Source: Demequina sp. B12 (lineage in GTDB: Bacteria; Actinomycetota; Actinomycetes; Actinomycetales; Demequinaceae). From it: a stretch of DNA of 64,000 bases. The notes below the pieces were generated by a model, which did not search any database, was not told the origin of the DNA, and saw nothing but the letters and a program-made list of their open reading frames with translations. The DNA lies in NCBI RefSeq assembly GCF_028823635.1, contig NZ_JAPEHU010000001.1, positions 434,001 to 498,000 on the forward strand, in the 5' to 3' direction. Positions 7,384-24,404 of the stretch are shown piece after piece; within the stretch, counting starts at the first letter, position 1, and every line of letters starts with the position of its first letter. The position numbers and the translations under genes are program-made.

Positions 7384-7687
7384 CGTCGTGCCTGCTACCA
7401 GAATCTATTTTGTTGGGTCTGGGAGCATTTCGGTTTGGTAGCAAGTGGCCGTTTCGAGTCCGGTTCGACGGGCTTCTGGCGGGCCGTGTTGCATCCACTG
7501 CACGCGGGCTACGTGCCGCCGCCCCCGCGCCCAGCCGTGCATGCCCGCCGGCGTGCCCGGCCTGCCCGGACCGTTCTATGGCTGGCGCTGTGCCATCCCT
7601 GACATCCGTTGCCTCCGGCGCCCGGCGTGTCCGCGGCGACATGCCGCCTGCCGCCGTCCGGTTGTGTCAGGGACGGCTCGCTTCCGC
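7384..7687. other. ~300-bp gene-free stretch with a long-range inverted repeat
   Basis: I see no convincing gene here; the open frames are shadows with poor codon structure. The right part contains an inverted repeat: CCATCCCTGACA (7593-7604) against TGTCAGGGACGG (7665-7676), 11 of 12 pairs plus one wobble. It encloses a very GC-rich segment that could itself fold, so the transcript could make an 84-nt structured element. It ends 11 bp before the -35 box of the ArsR promoter. Its function is unknown. Confidence 0.35.
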
Positions 7688-7716
7688 TTGACAGCGCCCC
7701 CGCCCCGGCGTAACGT
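7688..7716 (+). promoter_or_regulatory. arsR promoter (sigma-70-like)
   Basis: A perfect -35 TTGACA (7688-7693) and -10 TAACGT (7711-7716) are separated by 17 bp. Transcription would begin about base 7723-7725, at the ATG of the regulator gene, predicting a leaderless mRNA. Confidence 0.75.
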
Positions 7717-7733
7717 ACAACCAAATGGTTGTA
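7716..7733. promoter_or_regulatory. ArsR operator palindrome overlapping the start codon
   Basis: TACAACC-AAAT-GGTTGTA is a perfect inverted repeat (7-bp arms, 4-bp spacer). It begins on the last base of the -10 box and contains the ATG of the regulator gene at 7725. A dimeric ArsR protein bound here would block initiation directly (autorepression). Because the downstream SRPBCC gene is co-transcribed, it would be controlled too. Confidence 0.75.
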
Positions 7734-8072
7734 GAAATGGAACTCTCCGACAGCGAGGTCGACCGCATCTTCCGGGCCCTCGCCGATTCCACACGCCGCG
7801 ACATCGTCAGGCGCACGCTCGCAGAAGAAGCGTCCGTCTCCGACCTCGCGGCCGCGTACGACATGTCCTTCGCGGCAGTGCAAAAGCACGTCGCAGTCCT
7901 CGAGGGAGCTGGTTTGGTGACCAAGCGGCCCCACGGTCGCGAACGGTACGTCCGCGGCAACCCCCACACCATTCGTCGCGCCCAGCAACTCCTGGACGCT
8001 TATGAGCAGATCTGGCGTGCCCGCATTGGCCGCCTTGATGACCTGCTCGCTGAAGACCCCCGTCCATCCTGA
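7725..8072 (+). CDS. ArsR-family winged-helix regulator (SRPBCC-partnered type)
   Basis: DNA-binding regulator of 115 residues. The winged helix spans about residues 10-90: IFRALADSTRRDIVRR, then recognition helix region SFAAVQKHVAVLEGAGLV and wing KRPHGRERYV. No clustered metal-binding cysteines are present (there is no Cys at all), so this is not a metal sensor. It belongs to the ArsR type that is regularly encoded just before an AHSA1/SRPBCC protein, as here. Codons 1-3 are part of its own predicted operator, and the message appears leaderless. It probably represses itself and the next gene; the inducer is unknown. Confidence 0.93.
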   Translation: MVVEMELSDSEVDRIFRALADSTRRDIVRRTLAEEASVSDLAAAYDMSFAAVQKHVAVLEGAGLVTKRPHGRERYVRGNPHTIRRAQQLLDAYEQIWRARIGRLDDLLAEDPRPS

Positions 8073-8121
8073 CCGCGACCGACCCGGCCGCCCAGCCACG
8101 CTAAGAGAGAAGGTCCTTGCC

Positions 8122-9132
8122 ATGCCTGTGACTTCTGTAGAGAAAGACCTTGATGCATTGACCATGACGGTCATTGCCGACTTTGCCGCCCCACGTGAAC
8201 GCGTGTGGGAGGCGTACACCGACCCCCGCCAGATCGAGAAGTTCTGGGGTCCGGTGGAGTGGCCCGCCACCTTCACACGACACGATGTCTATGTGGGCGG
8301 CCGGAGTCACTATGTGATGACTAGTCCTGAAGGGGAGCAGTCGGGGGGAGTGTGGGAGTTCCTGGCGGTGGATCCGGGGCGCTCCTTTGAGGTGCGCGAT
8401 GCGTTCGCCGATGCGGACGGCAACGAGAATGCGCAGATGCCATCCATGCGGATGACGTTCCAGTTTGAGGACACGGAGTCCGGTTCGCGCTTGGTGAGCA
8501 CCACATACTTTGGTTCGCTTGAGCAGTTGGAGCAGCTCATCGAGATGGGTATGGAGCAGGGCATGCAGTCCGCGATGGGCCAGATCGACGATGTTCTTGC
8601 AGACTTGGCGAGCTTCGCTTCCGGTGAGGCACAACTGACGTTGCTGTCCGACACTCAGGTGCGGGTGTCCCGTCTGATCCGGGGAACTGTTCAGCAGGTG
8701 TGGGACGCCCACCATAAGAAGGATCTGCTGCAGAAGTGGCTGCTGGGTCCTGATGGGTGGAGCATGCCGGTGTGCGAGATCGCCACGGCGCAGGGGCAAA
8801 CGTATCGCTACGAGTGGGAGCCTTCGGCTGACCTGCTTGCGGATGCTGCACAGGAGGGGGCCGATGCTGCCTTGCCTCAGCGGTTCGGTTTCACGGGGGA
8901 GGTGCTGGAGTTTGAGGCGCCGTACCGTGCGGTGAACACGGAGTCGATGATTGGCATGGATGCGCCGTCGACGCTCAATGAGATGACGCTGACGCCCCGT
9001 GGTGATCAGACTCTTCTCACGATTGTGATCACGTATCCGGATCAGCAGATGCGCGACATCATCCTGGAGACGGGCATGGTGGACGGCATGGAGGACTCCT
9101 ACGCACGTTTGGAGCGTGAGGTGTTGAGCTAG
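8122..9132 (+). CDS. tandem SRPBCC (AHSA1-type) protein
   Basis: Protein of 336 residues made of two Activator-of-Hsp90-ATPase-1-like START/SRPBCC domains, a hydrophobic-ligand-binding helix-grip fold. Domain 1 covers about residues 8-155 (FAAPRERVWEAYTDPRQIEKFWGP is the family signature region). Domain 2 covers about 170-336 (IRGTVQQVWDAHHKKDLLQKW). Most AHSA1 partners of ArsR regulators are single domains of ~150 residues, so this is a duplication-fusion. The start is ATG 8122 with purine-rich AGAGAGAAGG upstream; an upstream extension to 8002 would overlap arsR without its own signal. Ligand and role are unknown. A strong terminator follows. Confidence 0.88.
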   Translation: MPVTSVEKDLDALTMTVIADFAAPRERVWEAYTDPRQIEKFWGPVEWPATFTRHDVYVGGRSHYVMTSPEGEQSGGVWEFLAVDPGRSFEVRDAFADADGNENAQMPSMRMTFQFEDTESGSRLVSTTYFGSLEQLEQLIEMGMEQGMQSAMGQIDDVLADLASFASGEAQLTLLSDTQVRVSRLIRGTVQQVWDAHHKKDLLQKWLLGPDGWSMPVCEIATAQGQTYRYEWEPSADLLADAAQEGADAALPQRFGFTGEVLEFEAPYRAVNTESMIGMDAPSTLNEMTLTPRGDQTLLTIVITYPDQQMRDIILETGMVDGMEDSYARLEREVLS

Positions 9133-12405: not shown

Positions 12406-12882
12406 GTGCTGACAGACGATGCCATGCGTGAGGTGTTGAGAAGCCAGCGAATGCTGGTGGGTTTCCTCAGAAATCCCAAGATGCGTGACGTCCTGGTGGA
12501 TGCACTGAACGGTGGCTCTGACGGCACTGATGCGCGGCTTGCTCCCCTGGGGTGGTGGCGCGAGGACGGCCCTGATCCAGACCGGCTCTCCCACCACTTC
12601 GCGGCGCTCACCACCCTGGCCTCCGAGCACGGTCTGTTGGCCTACGGTCCCATCAGTGCCTGGCCTGACAACGACTCGGAGAGGCCGGAACTGGTCCGGA
12701 CGGTCATTGACAGAGTGTTCGTGGGCGTGAGTCGTGGGTGGCTCACGGAGAGTGAACTGACGGCGCGGATTGGTGTGCTCTTCTTTGACGAGGCTGGGCT
12801 GCGTCGATACGCGGTGGATACCGGCTTGCTGGAGCGGGAGACTGACGGTTCGCGCTACTGGCAGGCGGAACCGAGCTCCTAG
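12406..12882 (+). CDS. DUF2087-like protein
   Basis: Protein of about 158 residues. The C-terminal part (ELTARIGVLFFDEAGLRRYA, then VDTGLLERETDGSRYW) matches the general pattern of DUF2087 (helical region, LRRYLVD, L-x-R-x-x-DG-x-x-YW), a domain often attached to helix-turn-helix regulators. The N-terminal helices (LRSQRMLVGFLRNPKMRDVL) fit such a role but have no recognisable DNA-binding signature. GTG 12406 is preferred because AGGGGGA lies just upstream; GTG 12355 is an alternative. The tail WQAEPSS duplicates that of the preceding protein. The stop overlaps the stop of the convergent kinase gene. Function unknown. Confidence 0.7.
   Translation: MLTDDAMREVLRSQRMLVGFLRNPKMRDVLVDALNGGSDGTDARLAPLGWWREDGPDPDRLSHHFAALTTLASEHGLLAYGPISAWPDNDSERPELVRTVIDRVFVGVSRGWLTESELTARIGVLFFDEAGLRRYAVDTGLLERETDGSRYWQAEPSS
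12858..12882 (+). repeat. direct repeat, copy 2 (3' end of DUF2087-like gene)
   Basis: 24 of 25 bases match 12328-12352; both copies end in a TAG stop and are read in the same frame. Confidence 0.9.
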
Positions 12883-14315
12883 GTCGCAGGGGTGGCGTGA
12901 GGCACCGTGATCGTGATGGTGGTGCCGTCGTCCGCAGTGGACTCCACTGTGAGTGTCCCGTGGTGCGCATCGACAATGGCCGCCGTGATCGCGAGCCCCA
13001 GTCCCGCCCCGCCGGTGGCACGGTGACGTGAGGAGTCTCCGCGTACGAACCGTTCCGTAGCTCGGGCGGCGACCTCGGGCGTCATGCCTGCACCGTTGTC
13101 GTGCACGATGACCCGAGCGTCGGCGTCGTCGCTGGTGACGGTCACCGTGACGGTGTCGCCGCCGTGGACGGCGGCGTTCGCCACCACGTTCAGCAGGGCT
13201 TGGCGGAGCCTGTCGCCGTCGGCGTTCACGGTGGCGGTGCCGCCGCCGAACTCGAAGGTGGTGTCGGGGTAAGCCACGGTCGCATCGGCAACAACGGAGG
13301 TGGCGAGGTCGCCCAGGTGGATGTCGCGTTGTTCCAGGTCGGGTTCGGCGTCGTACTTGGCGAGGGTGAGCATGTCTTCGACGAGTCGTCGCATGCGGGC
13401 GGCTTCGGCTTCGGTCCGGGCCCACGCATCGTTTTGGGCGTCGCTGTCGGCGAGCGCGCCGCGCTTGTGAAGCTCGGAGTACCCCAGGACTGTGGTGAGG
13501 GGGGTGCGCAACTCGTGGGAAGCATCGGCGACAAACTCTCGGAGACGTGTTTCCGACTTTTCGCGTTCGCGTAGCGAGTCGGTGAGGGTGCCGATCATGG
13601 CGTTGAGCGACTCGGCCAGCTCGTTTGTTTCGGTGCCGCCTTGGTCCGTGTTGAGGCGTACGTCAAGGTCGCCGTGGGCGATCTGGGTGGAGGCGTCCAC
13701 CATGCGGCGCATCGGCGTGATTCCTAGCCGGTTCACCCACCACGCCACCAGGCCCAGGGTGCCGATCAGGAGCACAATGCCGATGCCTTCGATGAGGATG
13801 AGCCGCTGGGTGGCAGCGGTGACGTCGTCCAAGGGGAGAGCGGTGATGTCCCAACCGCTGCCCGCGGGGCGTGCCAGGACACGGAACTTGGTGCTGCCGT
13901 CGGTGGAGTGGGCAGTGAAGTGGGCGGATTCGTCGGTCAGTTTGTGCAGCGGGATGGCGGGGACTTCATCGACGGCACCGTCCACGTTGGGCGCCACCAA
14001 CACATAGAGGTTGCCGTCGGCGTCGACGTAGCCGCGGGTCGCTTCGGAGAGGCGTTCGTCGTCTTGGAACTGTTGGAAACGGTCAGGCAACTGTTGGATG
14101 GGTTGGTCGTAGAAGCTCGGTCCCGCGTAGGAGTCCAACCGGTCGTCCATTTGCGACAGGAGGAACTGTTGCGTGGTGAGGGACACGATGATCGCGACCA
14201 CGATGGAGATGGCGCCCACTGCGGCCAGGCCGAGTCCGAGCCTGTCGCGAAGTGACAACGTGCGCCGATGCGCGGTGGGGGGTGCCGCATCGGGCTGGGG
14301 GGACGTGTCGGTCAC
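12879..14315 (-). CDS. HAMP-containing sensor histidine kinase
   Basis: Classical transmembrane kinase of 478 residues. It has an N-terminal membrane segment (LAAVGAISIVVAIIVSL), an extracytoplasmic sensor of about 120 residues, a second segment (ILIEGIGIVLLIGTLGLVAWWV) and HAMP. The HisKA motif is DASHELRTPLTTV (phospho-His), and the ATPase domain has an N-box (LLNVVANAAVH), G1 DNGAGM and GGAGLGLAI. The GTG start at 14315 overlaps the regulator stop (GTGA). It resembles TrcS/MprB-type kinases. The system is divergent from the DUF4956/VTC/lipoprotein operon, which it may control. Confidence 0.94.
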   Translation of the reverse strand: MTDTSPQPDAAPPTAHRRTLSLRDRLGLGLAAVGAISIVVAIIVSLTTQQFLLSQMDDRLDSYAGPSFYDQPIQQLPDRFQQFQDDERLSEATRGYVDADGNLYVLVAPNVDGAVDEVPAIPLHKLTDESAHFTAHSTDGSTKFRVLARPAGSGWDITALPLDDVTAATQRLILIEGIGIVLLIGTLGLVAWWVNRLGITPMRRMVDASTQIAHGDLDVRLNTDQGGTETNELAESLNAMIGTLTDSLREREKSETRLREFVADASHELRTPLTTVLGYSELHKRGALADSDAQNDAWARTEAEAARMRRLVEDMLTLAKYDAEPDLEQRDIHLGDLATSVVADATVAYPDTTFEFGGGTATVNADGDRLRQALLNVVANAAVHGGDTVTVTVTSDDADARVIVHDNGAGMTPEVAARATERFVRGDSSRHRATGGAGLGLAITAAIVDAHHGTLTVESTADDGTTITITVPHATPAT

Positions 14316-14995
14316 GGTGCCCTCAAGGTGTAGCCGGCGCCACGGACAGTGTGAATGAGTTTGGGGTCGGTGGCGTCGATTTTGCGGCGCAGATAGCCGA
14401 TGTATGTTTCCACGACGGAGGCGTCGTCGTCAGCGGCGTATCCCCACACGTTTTCGAGCAGCTGGCCGCGTGACAGGACGCGGCCCACGTTGCGCATCAG
14501 GTACATGAGCAGCCGGTACTCGGTGGGGGACAGGGCGATCTCGTTGCCGCCACGCGTCACCCGGTGGGACACGTCGTCGAGCATGAGGTCCGCAACTTCG
14601 TAGGCGGACGCGGAGGACGGTTCACGTTCAAAGCGGCGGGACACCGCTTCGACGCGGGCCACCAGTTCGTCCAGGTTGAAAGGCTTGTCGAGGTAGTCGT
14701 CGCCGCCAATGCGCAGGCCCTCGACCTTGTCTTCCGAACTGTCGCGGGCCGTCAGGAAGATGACGGGGGTCCGGTCACCCGAGTCCCGCAGGCGCCGGCA
14801 CATCGCGAAGCCGTCAACGTTCGGCATCATCACGTCGAGCACGATGAGGTCGGGCCGGTGCTCCTTGACCGCGCGCAAGCCTTCAGCGCCGTCGACAGCC
14901 TGCACCACGTCGTAGCCCTCGTACTTCAAGGCGGCGACAAGCATGGTGCGGAGGTTGTCCTCGTCGTCCACTACCAGGATGCGTCGTTCGGTCAT
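14312..14995 (-). CDS. OmpR-family response regulator
   Basis: Regulator of 227 residues. The receiver domain (1-115) has the acidic pair DDE, phospho-Asp in LIVLDVMMPNVDG, Thr in FLTARD and Lys in LDKPF; the C-terminal winged helix follows (LSPTEYRLLMYLMRN, then VVETYIGYLRRKID and TVRGAGYTL). ATG 14995 follows AAGGGC; longer frames to 15133 have no start signal and would extend past the receiver's normal first strand. Operonic with the kinase at 12879. The ~185-bp gap to the divergent DUF4956 gene presumably carries both promoters. Confidence 0.94.
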   Translation of the reverse strand: MTERRILVVDDEDNLRTMLVAALKYEGYDVVQAVDGAEGLRAVKEHRPDLIVLDVMMPNVDGFAMCRRLRDSGDRTPVIFLTARDSSEDKVEGLRIGGDDYLDKPFNLDELVARVEAVSRRFEREPSSASAYEVADLMLDDVSHRVTRGGNEIALSPTEYRLLMYLMRNVGRVLSRGQLLENVWGYAADDDASVVETYIGYLRRKIDATDPKLIHTVRGAGYTLRAP

Positions 14996-15180
14996 GCCCT
15001 TAAGTCTTGCACTCGACCCTGGGAGAACGCTGGGACTACGCCGCAAGCCCCACAGCAATCCCAGGAGGTTGTGTCTGCGTTCCCAGCCCATTCCCAGGTA
15101 GCGCCGGTGTGATGGAGTCATGCCCCGGCCCACTGGAGCAGCATCCGCACATCCTCGGGCCCTGACTCAAAGGTGACAAC

Positions 15181-15798
15181 GTGTCCATCTACACCCTCAT
15201 TGCTGCTGACCTCCTCGCCATTACGTTCCTGGTGTTCGGCTTGTACTTTCCGCGTCACCGTCGCCGCGACATGATCGTGGCGTTCCTCGCGATCAACGTG
15301 GGCGTCATGGGAGTGACGTACGCGATGGCTACCGCGGACGTCTCCTTGGGCTTTGGTCTGGGAATCTTCGCGGTCCTGTCGATCATCCGCTTGCGGTCCA
15401 CGGAGATGGATCACTCGGAGATCGCGTATTACTTCACCGCGATCGCCTTGGGTTTGCTGGGCGGCTTCCCAGGAATCAACGGCACCGTCGGTCTCACCCT
15501 GATGGTGATCCTGCTGTTGGCCATGACCATCGGAGACAGCCCCCGACTCCTGGGCCGTGCCCGCACCCAGCAGGTGGTCCTGGACCGCGCCGTCAGCACG
15601 GAAGCTGAAGCGGCGGAACTCTTGGATGACCTCTTGAACGCAGACATTCAGCGCGTCGTGATTCGCAAGACGGACCTGGTGCAGCAGACCACCGTGTGCG
15701 ACGTTCGCTACAACGTCCGCGCCACCGCGGACCTGCCCACTGCCGCCAGCACCACTGCCCCCGAGCGTATGCCCGCTACTGCCGGACGTGCCTCATGA
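15181..15798 (+). CDS. DUF4956 membrane protein
   Basis: Protein of 205 residues with about five membrane helices in the first 130 residues (AITFLVFGLYF, IVAFLAINVGVMGVTYAM, LGFGLGIFAVLSII, YYFTAIALGLLGGF, VGLTLMVILLLAM). A cytoplasmic tail of ~75 residues follows. The conserved core FAVLSIIRLRSTEMDHSEI between helices is characteristic of DUF4956. The family is repeatedly found beside VTC-domain polyphosphate-polymerase-like genes, as here. The start is GTG 15181; the stop overlaps the VTC gene by 4 bp (ATGA). A channel, assembly or scaffold role for the VTC enzyme is plausible but unproven. Confidence 0.88.
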   Translation: MSIYTLIAADLLAITFLVFGLYFPRHRRRDMIVAFLAINVGVMGVTYAMATADVSLGFGLGIFAVLSIIRLRSTEMDHSEIAYYFTAIALGLLGGFPGINGTVGLTLMVILLLAMTIGDSPRLLGRARTQQVVLDRAVSTEAEAAELLDDLLNADIQRVVIRKTDLVQQTTVCDVRYNVRATADLPTAASTTAPERMPATAGRAS

Positions 15799-16613
15799 CT
15801 ACCGCTGTCAGCCCGGTCGTAGCATCGGCCCTTCCATGGGCAGAGGACCTGGACCCGGTCACCCTCGACGAACTCAACGCCACCGCCGCACTTCAGCAGC
15901 GCGTGGACCGCAAGTACATCGTGGATCTGGATCTGTGGGAGACGGTGCTCGCCTCGCTCGATGCCGCTCCACGCGTCCTGGAGATTGGTGGCAAGCGCAT
16001 CTTCTCCTATGTGTCGACGTACTACGACACCCCGGACTGGGACACGTACCGCGATGCAGCCCACCGCCGTCCCAGCCGCTACAAGGTCCGCACCCGCACC
16101 TACGTTGACACTGCCACCGCCGCTATTGAGGTGAAGCTGCGCTCCCGTACGGGAGACACCGTGAAGCATCGTGAGTTCTTGACCACGCCCATGCCCGGCG
16201 CGGACAACCTCACGGATCAAGCGCTCGCTTTTGTGCAGGGCTTCCCCAGCATCGGCGCACACGCAGGGTCGTTGTCCGCAGCGCTCACCACCCGCTACCA
16301 GCGCACCACGCTCTTGACGGCCGATGCTCGCGTCACCGTGGACTCCGCGGTCCAGGGGGTTGCAGCGGACGGGCGTGTGGCGAGCTTTGGTGACCGTCTG
16401 ATTGTGGAGACCAAGTCCACTTCTCGTGCAGGAGTCGTGGACCGGGCCTTGTGGCACCACCACGTGAGGCCCGCGAAGGTCTCGAAGTACTGCACCACGT
16501 TGGCAGCGCTCCACCCGGACCTGCCTCATAACCGTTGGTCTCGCACCCTCCGCGGCCACGTCTCTGTTGTTCCGCCAGTGCCTGCCTCCGCGGCAGTCCC
16601 CGCTGGTCAGTAG
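15795..16613 (+). CDS. VTC-domain protein (polyphosphate-polymerase-like)
   Basis: Protein of 272 residues built almost entirely of one VTC domain, the triphosphate-tunnel fold that in yeast Vtc4 makes polyphosphate from ATP. The tunnel-lining basic and acidic residues seen are RVDRKY (36-41), YYDTPD (76-81), RYKVRTR (95-101), EVKLRSR (112-118), KHRE (about 124-127), RYQR and VETKS. This suggests an intact active site. There is no membrane segment; it probably works at the membrane with the DUF4956 protein. The start is ATG 15795, overlapping the upstream stop; a start at 15696 would overlap that gene by 100 bp. Product (polyphosphate or another polymer) is inferred. Confidence 0.87.
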   Translation: MTTAVSPVVASALPWAEDLDPVTLDELNATAALQQRVDRKYIVDLDLWETVLASLDAAPRVLEIGGKRIFSYVSTYYDTPDWDTYRDAAHRRPSRYKVRTRTYVDTATAAIEVKLRSRTGDTVKHREFLTTPMPGADNLTDQALAFVQGFPSIGAHAGSLSAALTTRYQRTTLLTADARVTVDSAVQGVAADGRVASFGDRLIVETKSTSRAGVVDRALWHHHVRPAKVSKYCTTLAALHPDLPHNRWSRTLRGHVSVVPPVPASAAVPAGQ

Positions 16614-16628
16614 ATAAGGATCCCCGCC

Positions 16629-18479
16629 ATGAAACACCATGTTTTCGCCAAGACCTCCGCCGTCGTTGCCGGCACCGCGCTGCTCCTGACGGGCTGCTCG
16701 CTGTCCAGCGGCGACGTCGAAACCACCACGGAAGCAACCGCGACCACTGGTGGCTCCGCGGATGACTCCACGTCCACCGACACCGCCACGACGACCGCTT
16801 CGGACACCACGGACGAGGCCATCGCGATTGGTGACCGTGTCGAAGCTACCTATGCGGACCTGGAGATTGAGGAAGTCGACCTCGACTACTCGACTGCTGG
16901 CGCGACCACCATCACGCTGGCCGATGGCGCCTCGACCGTGGACGGTTCGGGCGCCACGGTTGACGGCGACACCGTCACCATCACGGAGTCCGGCACCTAC
17001 GTCCTGTCTGGTGAACTGTCCGCGGGCCAAGTCGTGGTGAACGGCGACAAGGCGGACGTGGTGTTGGTCCTCGATGGGGTCGACATCACTGCGGCCGACG
17101 TCAGCGGTATCAACGTTGTTGACGCTGACTGGGTGGTCCTGGCGCTCGCGGCTGGCTCGACGAATGTGGTGTCAGATGCGGCCGATGCCGTGGATGCGGA
17201 TGACGCGGAAACGAATGCCGCGATCTATTCCACAGCGGACCTGTGGATCACCGGTGAGGGGTCGCTGCAGGTGAACGGCGTGGCTGCGGATGGCATCACC
17301 TCGAAGGACACCCTGGTGGTGAACTCGGGAGATCTCACCGTGACCGCTACGGACGATGGCCTTCGCGGCAAGGACCACCTGGTGGTGCTGGGAGGCGTTA
17401 TCGAGGTTGACGCAGGCGGCGACGGTCTCAAGGCCGACAACGTGAGCGACTCCGATGACACGAGCTATCCCGTGGGTGTCGTCTGGATCTCCGATGGCAC
17501 GTTGAATGTGACGTCTGGTGTGGACGCGATTGACGCAGAGAACCAGGTGACGATCGAGAACGGCACGTTGAGCCTCGCGGCAGGTGATGACGGCATCACC
17601 ACCAACGGCATCATGCGGGTCACCGACGGCACCATCGACGTCACGACCTCTGTTGAAGGCTTCGAGGCCGCGATCATGTACCTCGACGGCGGCACCGGCA
17701 GCATCGTGTCCAGCGACGACGGCTTCAACGCCACTGATGGCTCAACGAGCAGCGGCAACGACATGGGCGGCGGCATGGGTGGGGACACCGGCGGTCCCGG
17801 CGGTGAGCGCGGCGAGCGTTCCAGCCGGCCCGGGGAAGACACCACTGACGGTGCGTCCGCTTCCACCACGCCCGATGCGGCGGACACCAGCACAACGGTG
17901 ACCACCGCCGCGTACTCCTCATCGGACGCGTCCGAAGCGACCGTGGAGCAGACCGCAGGCGGTATGGGAGGCATGGACGCGGCTACCGAGGGTGTCATCA
18001 TCGAAATCTCGGGAGGAACCTGGAGCATCGATGCCGCAGGTGACGGCGTGGACTCCAACGGCGATGTGCTGATGACCGATGGCGTGGTGGTGGTCGCTGG
18101 TCCCACTAACTCTGGCAATGGGGCGGTGGACTACAACGGTTCGTTCCAGATGGATGGCGGCACGTTCGTGGCATCCGGTTCCGCGGGTATGGCGCAGGCG
18201 CCTGACTCTGGTTCCCAGGCAGTGATCGGGGTGTCGTTTGGCCAGACCATCACCGCCGGAACCCCCATCGCCGTGCTCGACGAGGACGGCACCTTGGTCG
18301 CGGCATACACCTCGACGAAGGACTCCCAAACTCTGGTGATTTCGAGCCCGGACCTGACCTCCGGCGACTCGTACACCGTGACCTTTGGCGGCACCGTGAC
18401 GGGTACTGCCACCGCCGGTCTCGTGACCGACGGTTCCATTTCCGGCAGTGAGACTGCTGGAACTGTAACGGCGAGCTAG
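16629..18479 (+). CDS. lipoprotein with Cthe_2159-type carbohydrate-binding beta-helix domain
   Basis: Secreted, lipid-anchored protein of 616 residues. The signal peptide ends in a lipobox (LLLTGC, Cys about residue 23). A Thr/Ser/Asp linker follows, then repeated beta-strand turns with SGV-type and DGI/DGL motifs (AADGITSKD, TDDGLRGKD, GGDGLKADN, VDAIDAENQ, GDDGITTNG, SDDGFNATD). This is the pattern of the PF14262 (Cthe_2159) parallel beta-helix, whose prototype binds calcium and acidic or cellulosic polysaccharide. A Gly/Met and acidic low-complexity insertion at about 370-450 interrupts the helix. It ends the DUF4956/VTC operon (15 bp gap), suggesting an anionic surface polymer theme. A terminator follows. 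Confidence 0.85.
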   Translation: MKHHVFAKTSAVVAGTALLLTGCSLSSGDVETTTEATATTGGSADDSTSTDTATTTASDTTDEAIAIGDRVEATYADLEIEEVDLDYSTAGATTITLADGASTVDGSGATVDGDTVTITESGTYVLSGELSAGQVVVNGDKADVVLVLDGVDITAADVSGINVVDADWVVLALAAGSTNVVSDAADAVDADDAETNAAIYSTADLWITGEGSLQVNGVAADGITSKDTLVVNSGDLTVTATDDGLRGKDHLVVLGGVIEVDAGGDGLKADNVSDSDDTSYPVGVVWISDGTLNVTSGVDAIDAENQVTIENGTLSLAAGDDGITTNGIMRVTDGTIDVTTSVEGFEAAIMYLDGGTGSIVSSDDGFNATDGSTSSGNDMGGGMGGDTGGPGGERGERSSRPGEDTTDGASASTTPDAADTSTTVTTAAYSSSDASEATVEQTAGGMGGMDAATEGVIIEISGGTWSIDAAGDGVDSNGDVLMTDGVVVVAGPTNSGNGAVDYNGSFQMDGGTFVASGSAGMAQAPDSGSQAVIGVSFGQTITAGTPIAVLDEDGTLVAAYTSTKDSQTLVISSPDLTSGDSYTVTFGGTVTGTATAGLVTDGSISGSETAGTVTAS

Positions 18480-18505
18480 GACTCTCACCTTTCTCGCGTC
18501 GAACT

Positions 18506-21295: not shown

Positions 21296-21982
21296 GTGAT
21301 CTCCCTACTCCTGCTCAACGGAGGCATTGGCGCCCGCGCCAAGACTGCCGGTCCCAAGCAGTTCGTCAAGATCAATGGCGTCCCCATCCTCGTGTACTCG
21401 CTCAAGGAAGCGGACGAGGTTGAGGCCATCACGGAAATCGTGGTGAATTACCCCGCTGGCCACCTCGACACCGTGGAACAGCTGGTGCGCGACTACGCGA
21501 TCGCCACCCCCGTGAAGTTCGTCGAAGCCGGCACGACCCGCCAGGAGTCCGTCGCCAAGCTGCTCGACGCCGCGGACAACGACACCGTGATGATTCACGA
21601 GTCGGCACGTCCCTTGGTCACTGCCCAGGACTTCGCTGCACTTGCCAACTCGGAGCACGCCAACGTGGGCTTCATGCGTGAAATCTCGTTCACCGTCGCC
21701 CCCGTGGACCCCGACACCCAGCGCGTCACCGGTTCGCTCGAGCGTGCCCGCCTGCGTAATGTTCAGCTCCCGCAGAAGTTTGCTGCCGCGGACCTGCGCA
21801 AGGGCCACGAGTTCGCGATCGCGGAAGGCCGCACCTTTACCGAAGACGCCACCATGTGTGCGGACGCCGGTATCGACGTGTTCTTCATCGAAGGCGACGA
21901 AAGCAACCTGAAGGTCACCACGCCCGGTGACGTGCGTCTCGCGACGCACCTGTTCCGCACGCGAGGTGAAGACGATGAGTAA
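21296..21982 (+). CDS. IspD/TarI-like cytidylyltransferase (probable ribitol-5-phosphate type)
   Basis: Nucleotidyltransferase of 228 residues that would transfer CMP from CTP to a polyol phosphate. The CTP loop is LLNGGIGARAKTAGPKQF; the TarI and Bcs1 group has this -GGIG-R- form rather than the AAGxGxR of housekeeping IspD. Further motifs are TTRQESV and the late TEDATMCADAG and KVTTPGD. The GTG start at 21296 has GGAG 5-6 nt upstream, and TACACT at 21256-21261 is a possible -10. The next gene is a reductase, overlapping by 8 bp. In Haemophilus these two activities are fused in Bcs1/Acs1, which makes CDP-ribitol from ribulose-5-phosphate. The pairing therefore supports CDP-ribitol synthesis. 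Confidence 0.85.
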   Translation: MISLLLLNGGIGARAKTAGPKQFVKINGVPILVYSLKEADEVEAITEIVVNYPAGHLDTVEQLVRDYAIATPVKFVEAGTTRQESVAKLLDAADNDTVMIHESARPLVTAQDFAALANSEHANVGFMREISFTVAPVDPDTQRVTGSLERARLRNVQLPQKFAAADLRKGHEFAIAEGRTFTEDATMCADAGIDVFFIEGDESNLKVTTPGDVRLATHLFRTRGEDDE

Positions 21983-22682
21983 AACTGCACTGGTGACCGG
22001 TGCCTCCAAGGGCATCGGCCTCGAGACGGTGCGCCGTCTCGCTACTTCCGACCTGAACATCACGACCATCGTGCTGATGGCACGTGCATCGCAGGACTAC
22101 GACGACAACTTCGCTGAACTGCAAAAAGACATCCCCGAAGGTGTCACGCTGGTCCGCGAAACAGTGGACGTGGGCGACCGCGACGTGCTGATCGAAGCCA
22201 TCCACCGCGTGTATGCGCAGGTGGGTCGCATCCACTACCTGATCAACAACGCTGGCTACACCAACCCGGTCGCGATCCACCAGGTCGAGTTCGACGACTT
22301 CGAACGCACCATGGCCGTCAACGTGTACGCGCCGTTCACCCTGGTGCAGGAGCTGCTGCACCTGGGCAACAAGTTCAAGGTCATCGTCAACATCGCCTCC
22401 ACCGCCGGCATCAACGGCCGCGCCGGATGGTTGACCTACAGCGCCTCCAAGGCCGCTGTGATCAACATGTCCGAGGTCATGCGCGACGAACTCAAGATCT
22501 ACGGCACCCGCGTGGTCTGCTTGTCACCGGGACGCACCGCCACCGCGTTGCGCCGCGTGCTTGCGCCCGAAGAGGACCCCACGACGATCATGCAGCCGCA
22601 GCACGTGGCCAAGGTCATCGAGACGATGCTCGGGTCCACCGGCCAGTACATCGACCAGCAGAACGTCATCGTTCGCCAGTAG
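21975..22682 (+). CDS. short-chain dehydrogenase, probable ribulose-5-phosphate reductase
   Basis: SDR of 235 residues with the classical features: cofactor motif VTGASKGIG (residues 7-15), NNAGY, the catalytic Ser region NIASTAG and Tyr/Lys in YSASKAA. ATG 21975 has AGGTGA upstream and overlaps the cytidylyltransferase gene by 8 bp. Context (cytidylyltransferase before, polyol-phosphate transferase after) suggests it reduces ribulose-5-phosphate to ribitol-5-phosphate, as the C-terminal half of Haemophilus Bcs1 does. The SDR fold itself does not prove the substrate. It is not the TarJ type, which is a zinc-type alcohol dehydrogenase. Confidence 0.83.
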   Translation: MSKTALVTGASKGIGLETVRRLATSDLNITTIVLMARASQDYDDNFAELQKDIPEGVTLVRETVDVGDRDVLIEAIHRVYAQVGRIHYLINNAGYTNPVAIHQVEFDDFERTMAVNVYAPFTLVQELLHLGNKFKVIVNIASTAGINGRAGWLTYSASKAAVINMSEVMRDELKIYGTRVVCLSPGRTATALRRVLAPEEDPTTIMQPQHVAKVIETMLGSTGQYIDQQNVIVRQ

Positions 22683-24404
22683 ATGCGACGGCTCTCTGCA
22701 TTCCAGGGCTTGGTGAAGCCCTGGCGTTTGGTTGCGCTCGCACTCGCGATCCTCACGGTCGCTGCGGCGGCGGCCGATGTGTCCTGGACCTGGGCGGCAG
22801 CACTCGCCCTGTGTGCAGCGCTCATTGGTATGCCGCTGACGCGACCCGTGGGGCCGCGCATGCGGTCGCGTCTGTCGTCTGACAGTCCGCTTGCCCGTTT
22901 GGCTGCCGCGTCCCACCTGGGAGCGGCCGCTACCTGGCTGGTCCTTGGTGCCTTGGGTGTTGCTGCGATTCGCGATGGCGAGCGTGACCTGTTGGCCGGC
23001 GCGGTCGTGATCGTGGGCGCACTCGCTACTGCAGCGACATCTGTGGCGACCCGTCCGGCAACGCGTGGAGACCTCCGTCTCAGCACCACCGCGAAGGCTT
23101 CAGCGAAGTCTCTGCCGTGGGCGTTGGCTTCACTGTCACTGTCCAAGACTGCCGCGATTGCAGCACTTGCGCTGTGGCCGGGCGTGCTGGCAAGGAGCCT
23201 TGCTGCAGCATCGGCCCTCCTGCTGATCGTGGGGGGAGTGCTGGTGGCTCAACGGCTCGCGGGCCGGGCCTCCCAGCGCGACCGTGTCTTGGCTGACATT
23301 GGCACGCTCGACATCGACTTCTGCATCTATCAGTCCGGTCCGGCGGGTTCGTCGTACCAGCTCAAGATGTGGTTGCCGTGGCTCGAGGCAAGCGGACTGA
23401 ACTACGTGGTGATCGCACGCGAGGAACCGCTGTTCACGGAACTGTCGGAGATCGTCGACAAGCCCGTGATCTATGCAGGCTCGCTCCGGGCGGTTGACGA
23501 CGTCCTTGCCCACAGCGGCGGCACGGTCGTCTACGTCAACAACGCGGCCACGAACACCCACGCGGTGCGCCGGTACCAGCTCAACCACATTCAGATCCTG
23601 CACGGAGACTCGGAGAAGGCTTCGAGCCGTAACCCCATGTCCGCCATGTATGACGAACTGTGGGTGGCCGGCCAGGCTGCGGTTGACCGGTACGCCGACT
23701 TTGGGGTGATGATCCCGGAGGAGAAGTTCCGCATTGTGGGACGGCCTCAGGTGGCTGGCATTGAAGGGCCCCGCGACGGTAGCGAACCGTTCACGGCGCT
23801 CTACGCACCCACGTGGAATGGGTTCTTTGGCGACGCGGACTATTCGTCCTTGCGGTTCGGGACGCAGATTGTGCAGGCGTTGCTGGATGAGGGCTGCACG
23901 GTGTTGTTCCGTGAGCACCCGTATTCGGCGAAGTCGGCGGAACTGCGCGAGTACATCGCCCAGATCCAGGCGTTGCTGGAAGCGGACCGTGCGAGCACTG
24001 GTCGCCAGCATCGTTGGGGTCCGGAACTGTTCGCGGAACTCGACTTGGTGGGCTCATTCAATGCCTCTGACGTGGCCGTGACGGATATCTCCGCCGTGCC
24101 GAACGACTACCTCTTCAGTGGGAAGCCGTTGGCGATGATGGAGATGCAGCCGGACATCATGATCGAGATGGAGGGCCGTCCCTCGCTCGCGTCTGCGGTG
24201 TATCGCGCCAACCCAGAAACCGACATTCCTTCGTGGATTGCGGAGTTGGTGGCGGATCGCACGCTGGCGGAGGCCCGTGTGGAGGCTCGGAAGTACTACT
24301 TGGGCGATCTGCCCCGTGACGGCTATGACGGTGTCTTTGTGACGGCGTTGCAGGAGTCGGTCCGGGAGCATGCCTTCAAGGGTGAACTCGACACCGAGGT
24401 GTAA
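22683..24404 (+). CDS. CDP-polyol polyolphosphotransferase (TagB/TagF/TarL family) with membrane domain
   Basis: Protein of 573 residues that would polymerise or prime glycerol- or ribitol-phosphate from the CDP-polyol made by the two preceding genes. The first ~200 residues form about six membrane helices; the rest is the PF04464 catalytic domain. Its hallmark is HGDSEKASSRN (usual form HGDSDKxxS), with YAPTWNGFFG, FREHPYS and the late DISAVPNDYLFSGKP, all seen. ATG 22683 abuts the upstream stop with no gap. The integral membrane N-terminus is unlike the Bacillus and Staphylococcus enzymes, which are peripheral. A very strong terminator follows. Confidence 0.88.
   Translation: MRRLSAFQGLVKPWRLVALALAILTVAAAAADVSWTWAAALALCAALIGMPLTRPVGPRMRSRLSSDSPLARLAAASHLGAAATWLVLGALGVAAIRDGERDLLAGAVVIVGALATAATSVATRPATRGDLRLSTTAKASAKSLPWALASLSLSKTAAIAALALWPGVLARSLAAASALLLIVGGVLVAQRLAGRASQRDRVLADIGTLDIDFCIYQSGPAGSSYQLKMWLPWLEASGLNYVVIAREEPLFTELSEIVDKPVIYAGSLRAVDDVLAHSGGTVVYVNNAATNTHAVRRYQLNHIQILHGDSEKASSRNPMSAMYDELWVAGQAAVDRYADFGVMIPEEKFRIVGRPQVAGIEGPRDGSEPFTALYAPTWNGFFGDADYSSLRFGTQIVQALLDEGCTVLFREHPYSAKSAELREYIAQIQALLEADRASTGRQHRWGPELFAELDLVGSFNASDVAVTDISAVPNDYLFSGKPLAMMEMQPDIMIEMEGRPSLASAVYRANPETDIPSWIAELVADRTLAEARVEARKYYLGDLPRDGYDGVFVTALQESVREHAFKGELDTEV

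Follow-up and report, generated by a model that had tools for sequence, protein, structure and literature searches.

The window analysed here comprises 64,000 nucleotides of Demequina sp. B12 (contig NZ_JAPEHU010000001.1, positions 434,001 to 498,000; G000:C10:434001-498000 in our numbering of genomes, contigs and, with L, fetched stretches), whose genome of 2.33 Mb is divided into 52 contigs. In it we studied an operon that encodes a DUF4956 membrane protein, a VTC protein of the polyphosphate-polymerase type and a beta-helix lipoprotein of the Cthe_2159 family. The genes for a response regulator and a histidine kinase are transcribed divergently from this operon. A sequence-only reading of the stretch had described these genes as a regulated machine for polyphosphate or a similar anionic polymer, and Pfam domain matches together with the sequence bear out its genes, their coordinates and the divergence from an OmpR-type system (Table 1). 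It had placed the operon with its own two-component system at 14312-18479; the kinase gene, however, lies outside that range. The ATG of the VTC gene overlaps the DUF4956 stop by 4 bp, and the GTG of the kinase gene overlaps the regulator stop by the same length. Named relatives of the VTC protein, which agree with the genus Demequina, are those of D. flava (73% identical) and D. globuliformis (68%). For a plasmid location we found no indication, as 14300-18500 gave no megablast match in PLSDB. The operon is a real, conserved and co-regulated unit; its chemistry is a prediction.

Table 1. Positions of the genes and promoter elements in the window.
Feature	Position	Strand	Basis and remarks
Histidine kinase gene	12879..14315	-	HAMP, HisKA, HATPase_c; GTG start; PF00512 E=9.1e-18, PF02518 E=9.7e-26
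OmpR-type response regulator gene	14312..14995	-	PF00072 E=6.2e-33, PF00486 E=6.6e-27
TCCCAG-N5-TCCCAG facing the regulator gene	15019..15035	-	regulator start codon 40 bp from box start
Additional TCCCAG half-site	15059..15064	+	22 bp upstream of the next pair
TCCCAG-N5-TCCCAG facing DUF4956	15081..15097	+	sequence, genome scan
Candidate -10 element TGTGAT	15108..15113	+	10 bp after box; proposed from sequence and similar spacing at other boxes
DUF4956 membrane protein gene	15181..15798	+	GTG start; PF16316 E=3.5e-52
VTC/TTM polyphosphate-polymerase-type gene	15795..16613	+	PF09359 E=5.1e-19, 69.2 bits (cut-off 23)
Cthe_2159 beta-helix lipoprotein gene	16629..18479	+	PF14262 E=1.6e-63
Teichoic-type set: IspD-type cytidylyltransferase, SDR, CDP-glycerol glycerophosphotransferase-like	21296-24404		3-6 kb downstream of the operon; last gene at E=1.1e-6

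The intergenic region carries the box TCCCAG-N5-TCCCAG, a direct repeat with a period of 11 bp, in two mirror-image copies of which one faces each gene. At other sites we also observed a -10-like element at a similar distance downstream of the box. Because the regulator's own promoter carries the box, we infer that the adjacent regulator binds it. The arrangement resembles PhoB and the pho box, in which the half-sites are 11 bp apart and the box ends 10 bp before the -10 element: the regulator is likewise of the OmpR family and both spacings are the same. The half-site itself, however, is a different one, and the regulator stays below the cut-off of the PhoB equivalog (230.1 against 296.2 bits). 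It was also below the cut-offs of the NCBIfam models among the matches listed (25 of 105). For the MtrAB equivalogs the regulator scored 213.6 (cut-off 300) and the kinase 185.5 with MtrB (cut-off 450), and for phoR_proteo the kinase scored 166.2 (cut-off 334.2). Elsewhere in this genome a one-mismatch box together with a -10-like sequence lies upstream of an ECF sigma-factor gene (L114:1501-1517; Sigma70_r2 E=4.2e-21). This raised MprAB as a possible identity of the two-component system, which we rejected as the MprA motif of C. glutamicum, TKTTAAGAAM (PMC12113857), differs from the box.

We first spotted the box in the window and then counted it in 29 distinct Demequina intergenic regions, the window included; these regions come from related genomes and are not independent draws. 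With at most one mismatch and a period of 11 the box was present in 24 of the 29 regions and perfect in 11. Pairs at periods of 9, 10, 12 or 13 were seen in at most 1 of 29, and dinucleotide shuffles gave on average 0.16 of 29. The genome of strain B12 contains four perfect boxes against 0.28 expected from a reversed-pattern control. Two are those in the window. The third lies 355 kb away, where a CotH lipoprotein gene (L103:3789-5297) has its ATG 39 bp downstream of the box start. The fourth (C21:86179) was rejected as a regulon site and taken as chance because it lies inside the glutamyl-tRNA synthetase gene gltX. We then find a box upstream of all 17 CotH-family genes of Demequina when about 420 to 1330 bp per gene are scanned with up to two mismatches: five are perfect, six have one mismatch and six have two. 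They lie 39-40 bp before the start codons as chosen by us, and only 0.03 to 0.1 per gene would be expected. The CotH gene of another genus (L138, the one tested of four) showed no box.

Across 44 Demequina genomes there were 72 perfect sites compared to 14 for the control. Seven recurring places account for 54 of these, and the other 18 are scattered, which is about the control level. The recurring places are DUF4956 (10), CotH (9), an HlyD/MacA-like adaptor (9), the position just after Cthe_2159 (9), the regulator (8), an FMN-binding protein (5) and a second Cthe_2159 lipoprotein (4). These assignments were made by reading distances; for the kinds named last, Pfam checks covered one or two proteins each, and the rest were assigned by likeness to these. 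For the adaptor, eight genomes are concerned (L162, L180, L182, L190, L191, L193, L197, L201) and two proteins were tested with Pfam. Taken together, a regulon that includes the unlinked CotH lipoprotein gene is well supported.

Some of the other sites deserve a description of their own. The FMN-binding protein gene with a box occurs at L195:1583-6966 and in L173, L187, L188 and L189, with two ferric-reductase-like genes and ApbE in addition at L195; in these five genomes the regulon may include an operon for extracytoplasmic electron transfer. A second, shorter Cthe_2159 lipoprotein gene with a perfect box was seen at L175:228-1454, L195:7924-9132, L200 and L205. Two of the genomes concerned (G024, G030) gave no CotH match and the other two were outside the CotH search, as if this lipoprotein stood in for CotH. 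The perfect box just after the Cthe_2159 gene belongs to one clade (L164, L166, L167, L170, L174, L038:10395-10411), and in L038, the sole locus inspected, no convincing gene followed it. Two of the 18 scattered boxes, in L160 (G020) and L192 (G011), have near-identical surroundings and represent either a further conserved site or plain relatedness.

We next consider how firmly the genes of the operon keep together. Of 59 genomes, our own among them, 34 have the VTC gene; 30 of the 37 Demequina genomes belong to these. We examined 31 Demequina loci, namely those of the 30 VTC-positive genomes and that of D. globuliformis. The fetched stretch contained the response regulator in 29 of the 31, the exceptions being G019 and G029, the latter a short contig end, and Cthe_2159 in 28; the divergent layout could be read in 29 loci. 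Thus the arrangement of the operon is not due to chance. All three without Cthe_2159 (G008, G014, G253) have a full-length CotH gene. Overall, 17 of the 30 Demequina genomes with VTC gave a CotH match, compared to none of the 7 without VTC (Fisher 0.009; two of the seven are 85 and 94% complete). That the operon is a regulated unit, as had been claimed for it, is supported. Two loci show irregularities. In L050 (G027) the VTC gene reads in two overlapping frames at ~7592-8383, which reflects a frameshift or a sequencing error, and at L047:4956-4983 (G019) two overlapping one-mismatch boxes lie upstream of DUF4956, with no regulator found in the 14-kb stretch.

For the phylum we surveyed one draw of 198 Actinomycetota genomes, our own included, by profile matches. 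DUF4956 and VTC each matched 20 genomes, and these were the identical 20; every DUF4956 match (21 of 21, with two in G168) adjoins a VTC match. Among the 17 genomes with CotH 16 belong to these 20, and among the nine with Cthe_2159 eight do. All 20 have a CotH or Cthe_2159 gene compared to only 2 of the 178 others (G069, G212; Fisher 1.8e-25, uncorrected for relatedness). This gene lies within 2 kb of 19 of the 21 pairs and on another contig in G163 and G202. Four genomes of one family (G084, G122, G197, G229) gave no CotH match and have Cthe_2159 next to DUF4956 instead, and in G241 CotH, Cthe_2159, VTC, DUF4956 and Cthe_2159 stand side by side. The linkage with lipoprotein and kinase, on which the sequence-only reading had made its proposal depend, was found to be conserved.

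The pairing also extends beyond the phylum. In 14 control genomes VTC and DUF4956 occur in the same three, accompanied by CotH in C. glutamicum and Methanosarcina acetivorans and by Cthe_2159 in Bacteroides ihuae. A plasmid collection gave 16 records with a VTC match, of which seven were opened (two of these unannotated). On Aminobacter and Shinella plasmids DUF4956-VTC is followed by a gene annotated as phytase-like; on a Nitratireductor plasmid a PHO4 phosphate transporter and then a phytase-like gene follow. One phytase-like protein and the PHO4 transporter of these alphaproteobacterial plasmids were confirmed by Pfam. One Deinococcus plasmid carries CotH-VTC-DUF4956 and another VTC-DUF4956 near a HAD acid phosphatase. 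For CotH in such distant loci we used a Pfam search, as phmmer with a Deinococcus query missed most of them. On a Pseudoalteromonas plasmid (L105) DUF4956 has a porin gene and a gene for a lamin-tail protein as neighbours; neither tblastn nor the same plasmid collection yielded a VTC match, which makes this plasmid a possible exception to the pairing.

Divergent regulators were also encountered in other families: an adjacent regulator and kinase occur in 6 of the 20 stretches L076-L095. Four loci of one family (L076-L079) have the order Cthe_2159, DUF4956, VTC, divergent regulator and kinase. Each of their divergent regions contains two mirror-image TTTCAG repeats with a period of 11 (eight in total, at most two mismatches). 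There were none at periods of 9, 10 and 12 and one at 13, and shuffles gave 0.24 in total with a maximum of 2, a figure that flatters the result because the half-site was chosen after seeing the repeats in the same loci. In a further family (L081, L082) CotH, regulator and kinase are divergent from DUF4956-VTC, and the regulators match that of the window with 310 and 259 bits. These two loci have no TCCCAG box at one mismatch, and at two mismatches only L081 has one. At two mismatches the box was absent from nine stretches that are not of the Demequina type (L082-L085, L093, L095, L100, L033, L053).

In order to characterise the enzyme we aligned 42 VTC proteins (A1), leaving out near-duplicates, a number of further Demequina loci and broken or partial genes (such as L022, L050, L057, L061, L067, L071, L072, L074, L075). 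The resulting profile had ten matches with E<=0.01 among PDB sequences. All ten are Vtc subunits and Vtc4 is the first (2.2e-17). The structural model (predicted local distance difference test, pLDDT, 73.0; predicted template modelling score, pTM, 0.75) had Vtc4 as its best Foldseek match (1.1e-10, template modelling score 0.54). Direct comparison with Vtc4 gave Z 12.3 over 205 residues at 3.8 A, and other TTM enzymes reached at most 10.9 (ygiF 10.7). The alignment has 19 invariant columns and was set against yeast Vtc4 (3g3q/8i6v). The residues invariant in 42 of 42 rows include R36, K40, R99, R101, K114, K124, R170, R179, E205, K207, S230 and K231, which were aligned to Vtc4, as well as K97 and E112. 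Thus the tunnel residues are intact, as the earlier reading had stated. R99, R101 and E205 correspond to R264, R266 and E426, and a triple change of these leaves the yeast complex catalytically impaired (PMC9911596); K231 corresponds to K458, which has been called catalytic (PMC4641920). In the triphosphatase AtTTM3 Glu-2, Glu-4, Glu-90 and Glu-171 replace four basic residues of Vtc4 (PMC4641920). In our alignment Glu-2 falls on R36, Glu-171 on K207, Glu-4 on D38 and Glu-90 probably on K124, the last being mapped less surely. Since two and probably three of the four patch positions are basic and K231 is invariant, the VTC domain looks more like a polymerase than like a hydrolase, with one position against. 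A profile search of the 272-aa protein showed the VTC domain only and no SPX domain, and no hydropathy peak indicated a transmembrane helix. The parts of PMC7112168, PMC12345266 and PMC2879425 that we consulted name bacterial VTC loci by domain and give no enzyme test, and there was no test of a bacterial VTC enzyme among the literature matches listed for CotH with polyphosphate and for bacterial VTC.

The DUF4956 protein has five predicted helices followed by a C-terminal strand-helix-strand-strand domain. The number of helices agrees with the sequence-only reading both in a low-confidence model (pLDDT 57.9) and in a crude hydropathy scan (five peaks, two overlapping). The model was built on a four-row alignment; in Foldseek its best match had E 0.16, and the matches were scattered ribosomal and ACT-type ones. 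We did not use the structure as evidence of function. In our alignment of 34 rows (A2), from which we omitted near-duplicates, a number of additional Demequina loci and genes that are broken or partial, Y22, R70, R72, G91 and G95 are the same in every row, and at least 90% of the rows keep R25 and H26. With the arginine-rich loops placed inside, the N-terminus would lie outside, and the conserved basic residues would be found at the cytoplasmic mouth beside the docking place of VTC. In yeast VTC, basic channel residues are needed for vacuolar polyphosphate (PMC9911596). For a kinship with MgtC, which PMC12345266 suggests for the protein SIR_1592, hhalign returned a probability of 0.3 with an MgtC profile of two sequences only.

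Turning to the surface proteins, the lipobox LLLTGC with Cys23 (identified by eye), the PF14262 domain and a match to the solved chain 4peu_A (phmmer E=5.2e-31) characterise the third gene product as the lipid-anchored beta-helix protein that had been described. It shares the beta-helix family with Cthe_2159 itself (PDB 4peu/4phb). It differs in its lipid anchor, its very acidic composition, a Gly/Met-rich insert at about residues 371-455 and its place in an operon with VTC. An acidic Ser/Thr linker is also present. The net charge is about -84 and thus the protein is unlikely to hold a polyanion without cations. As three of the 31 Demequina loci moreover have no such lipoprotein, the idea that it holds an anionic polymer at the surface is weak. 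In CotH proteins the Asp of the WDL(N/D) motif is important. The CotH protein of this genome (L103; PF08757 E=7.6e-27) has the motif NWDLN. Nine Demequina genomes encode a mini-CotH (L146-L154) of 150-159 aa which consists of the C-terminal lobe only, shows no signal peptide by eye and has Ala or Thr in place of the Asp of WDLN. The promoter box is kept, and these genes look like co-regulated pseudokinases. With the exception of mini-CotH, the Demequina CotH and Cthe_2159 proteins that we inspected start like lipoproteins.

On these grounds we give somewhat less than even odds, roughly 0.45, to a regulon that couples the synthesis of polyphosphate, or of a polymer like it, to its export and thereby serves surface lipoproteins. 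The OmpR-type two-component system would control a small envelope regulon by activating promoters in which two TCCCAG half-sites are spaced by one turn of the helix. Docked to DUF4956, the cytosolic VTC domain enzyme would build the phosphate polymer from ATP. DUF4956 would accept the chain at its positively charged cytoplasmic mouth and move it to the other side of the membrane, in the way that the yeast complex delivers its chain into the vacuole. On the outer side the surface lipoproteins, Cthe_2159 next door and CotH elsewhere on the contig, would act and may either use the exported phosphate or build it, with divalent cations, into a surface layer. The regulated unit, the polymerase-like VTC and the lipoprotein and kinase linkage of the sequence-only reading are retained in this proposal.

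Several observations weigh against such a synthesis and export system. Three of the 29 Demequina intergenic regions (L007, L012, L036) have no box with up to two mismatches. The acidic-patch position D38 is Asp or Glu in 41 of 42 rows, and no solved structure matches DUF4956 significantly. CotH occurs without VTC in G212 and in the control B. subtilis, where DUF4956 is absent too. An active kinase cannot be essential, because nine Demequina genomes have only mini-CotH. Finally, in S. intermedius the deletion of SIR_1592, by gene order presumably the DUF4956 gene, gives more Pel and the deletion of the cotH-like SIR_1594 less; both lower aggregation, whereas for the VTC deletion the consulted parts of the paper mention no change in aggregation (PMC12345266).

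A simpler explanation, which we regard as somewhat unlikely, is that VTC makes cytosolic polyphosphate only, with DUF4956 as an anchor or regulator acting via its C-terminal domain and with surface proteins that answer the same stress independently. The C-terminal DUF4956 model matches several ACT-type domains weakly (all E>0.1), and the MprAB envelope regulon of C. glutamicum mixes unrelated genes (PMC12113857), both of which would fit. However, PPK1 is encoded in this genome and in 55 of 59 relatives, so that a role in storage only would be redundant. The strict DUF4956-VTC pairing (21/21), the presence of CotH or Cthe_2159 in 20/20 pair genomes, with inspected Demequina members that, mini-CotH apart, are lipoprotein-like, and the position of R70, R72 and R25/H26 on the predicted cytoplasmic side also speak against a purely cytosolic product. 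Two good genomes of the order (G046, G054) gave no PPK1 match and have DUF4956-VTC-Cthe_2159; VTC might replace PPK1 there.

Unlikely, in our view, is a module that modifies or tunes a secreted glycan, a teichoic-acid-like polymer or a surface protein, as is assumed for the Pel accessory genes, and where VTC-DUF4956 supplies phosphate or signalling for CotH and the product is not polyphosphate. The genes for cotH, a polyphosphate polymerase and DUF4956 have been described beside Pel loci (PMC7112168) and the S. intermedius mutants mentioned above are altered in Pel (PMC12345266). In addition, Cthe_2159 is by name a carbohydrate-binding family and teichoic-type genes follow downstream of the operon. 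The Pel accessory genes of Streptococcus, Clostridium and Bifidobacterium (PMC7112168, PMC12345266) indeed comprise the same three families. Here, however, CotH is unlinked and carries the same box, Cthe_2159 is the partner, the operon has its own two-component system and PelG is missing: it was over the cut-off in none of the 59 genomes, our own included (other pel genes were not searched). We therefore rejected a Pel link of the module in this genus. The trio was reported in 2025 as not found outside Pel loci (PMC12345266), unlike what we observed in Demequina, where DUF4956-VTC and CotH occur together without PelG. The teichoic-type cluster was likewise rejected as part of the module and taken as a bystander because such genes stand beside the operon in only 1 of the 23 other stretches L031-L053 (L049), many of which reach little further. 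VTC and CotH genes are also known from NELoc-2 of C. perfringens (PMC2879425). Among the literature matches listed we found none on the Cthe_2159 partner, the two-component system or the box, with Cthe_2159 papers judged by their listing alone. That the VTC domain is a triphosphatase or another TTM hydrolase, in an operon unrelated to polymer synthesis, is improbable: TTM folds carry many activities, ygiF comes close behind Vtc4 in the structure comparison and D38 is acidic, but R36 and K207 stand where the metal site of the hydrolases has Glu, K231 corresponds to the polymerase-specific catalytic Lys and all ten sequence-profile matches are Vtc subunits.

The system studied here has two features in common with the eukaryotic VTC complex (yeast Vtc1/Vtc3/Vtc4): a TTM polymerase domain whose catalytic and tunnel residues agree with those of yeast, and obligate pairing with a membrane component in which basic residues are conserved. 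Unlike that complex it is bacterial, has no SPX domain and is associated with a two-component system and with surface lipoproteins; its membrane component is a protein of its own with five helices, for which no kinship was detected. A bolder form of the synthesis and export proposal, to which we give a low probability, regards VTC-DUF4956 as a minimal equivalent of the VTC complex in bacteria. It would thread polyphosphate outward as the phosphate donor for secreted CotH-family kinases, there being no ATP outside the cell, with the Cthe_2159 beta-helix as substrate or cation-bridged scaffold.

The trio itself is known as a Pel accessory; new here are the coupling across the phylum, the promoter box with the unlinked CotH and the equivalents of the Vtc4 residues. 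In the genome of strain B12, whose genus is not known for pathogens, the regulon comprises six genes, with one promoter box common to unlinked genes. Since DUF4956 and VTC are strictly paired, take either CotH or Cthe_2159 as partner and share the common box, the question of what bacterial VTC enzymes do becomes that of a defined regulon. If the donor proposal were true, exported polyphosphate would drive phosphorylation outside the cytoplasm, in a system widespread in bacteria and archaea.

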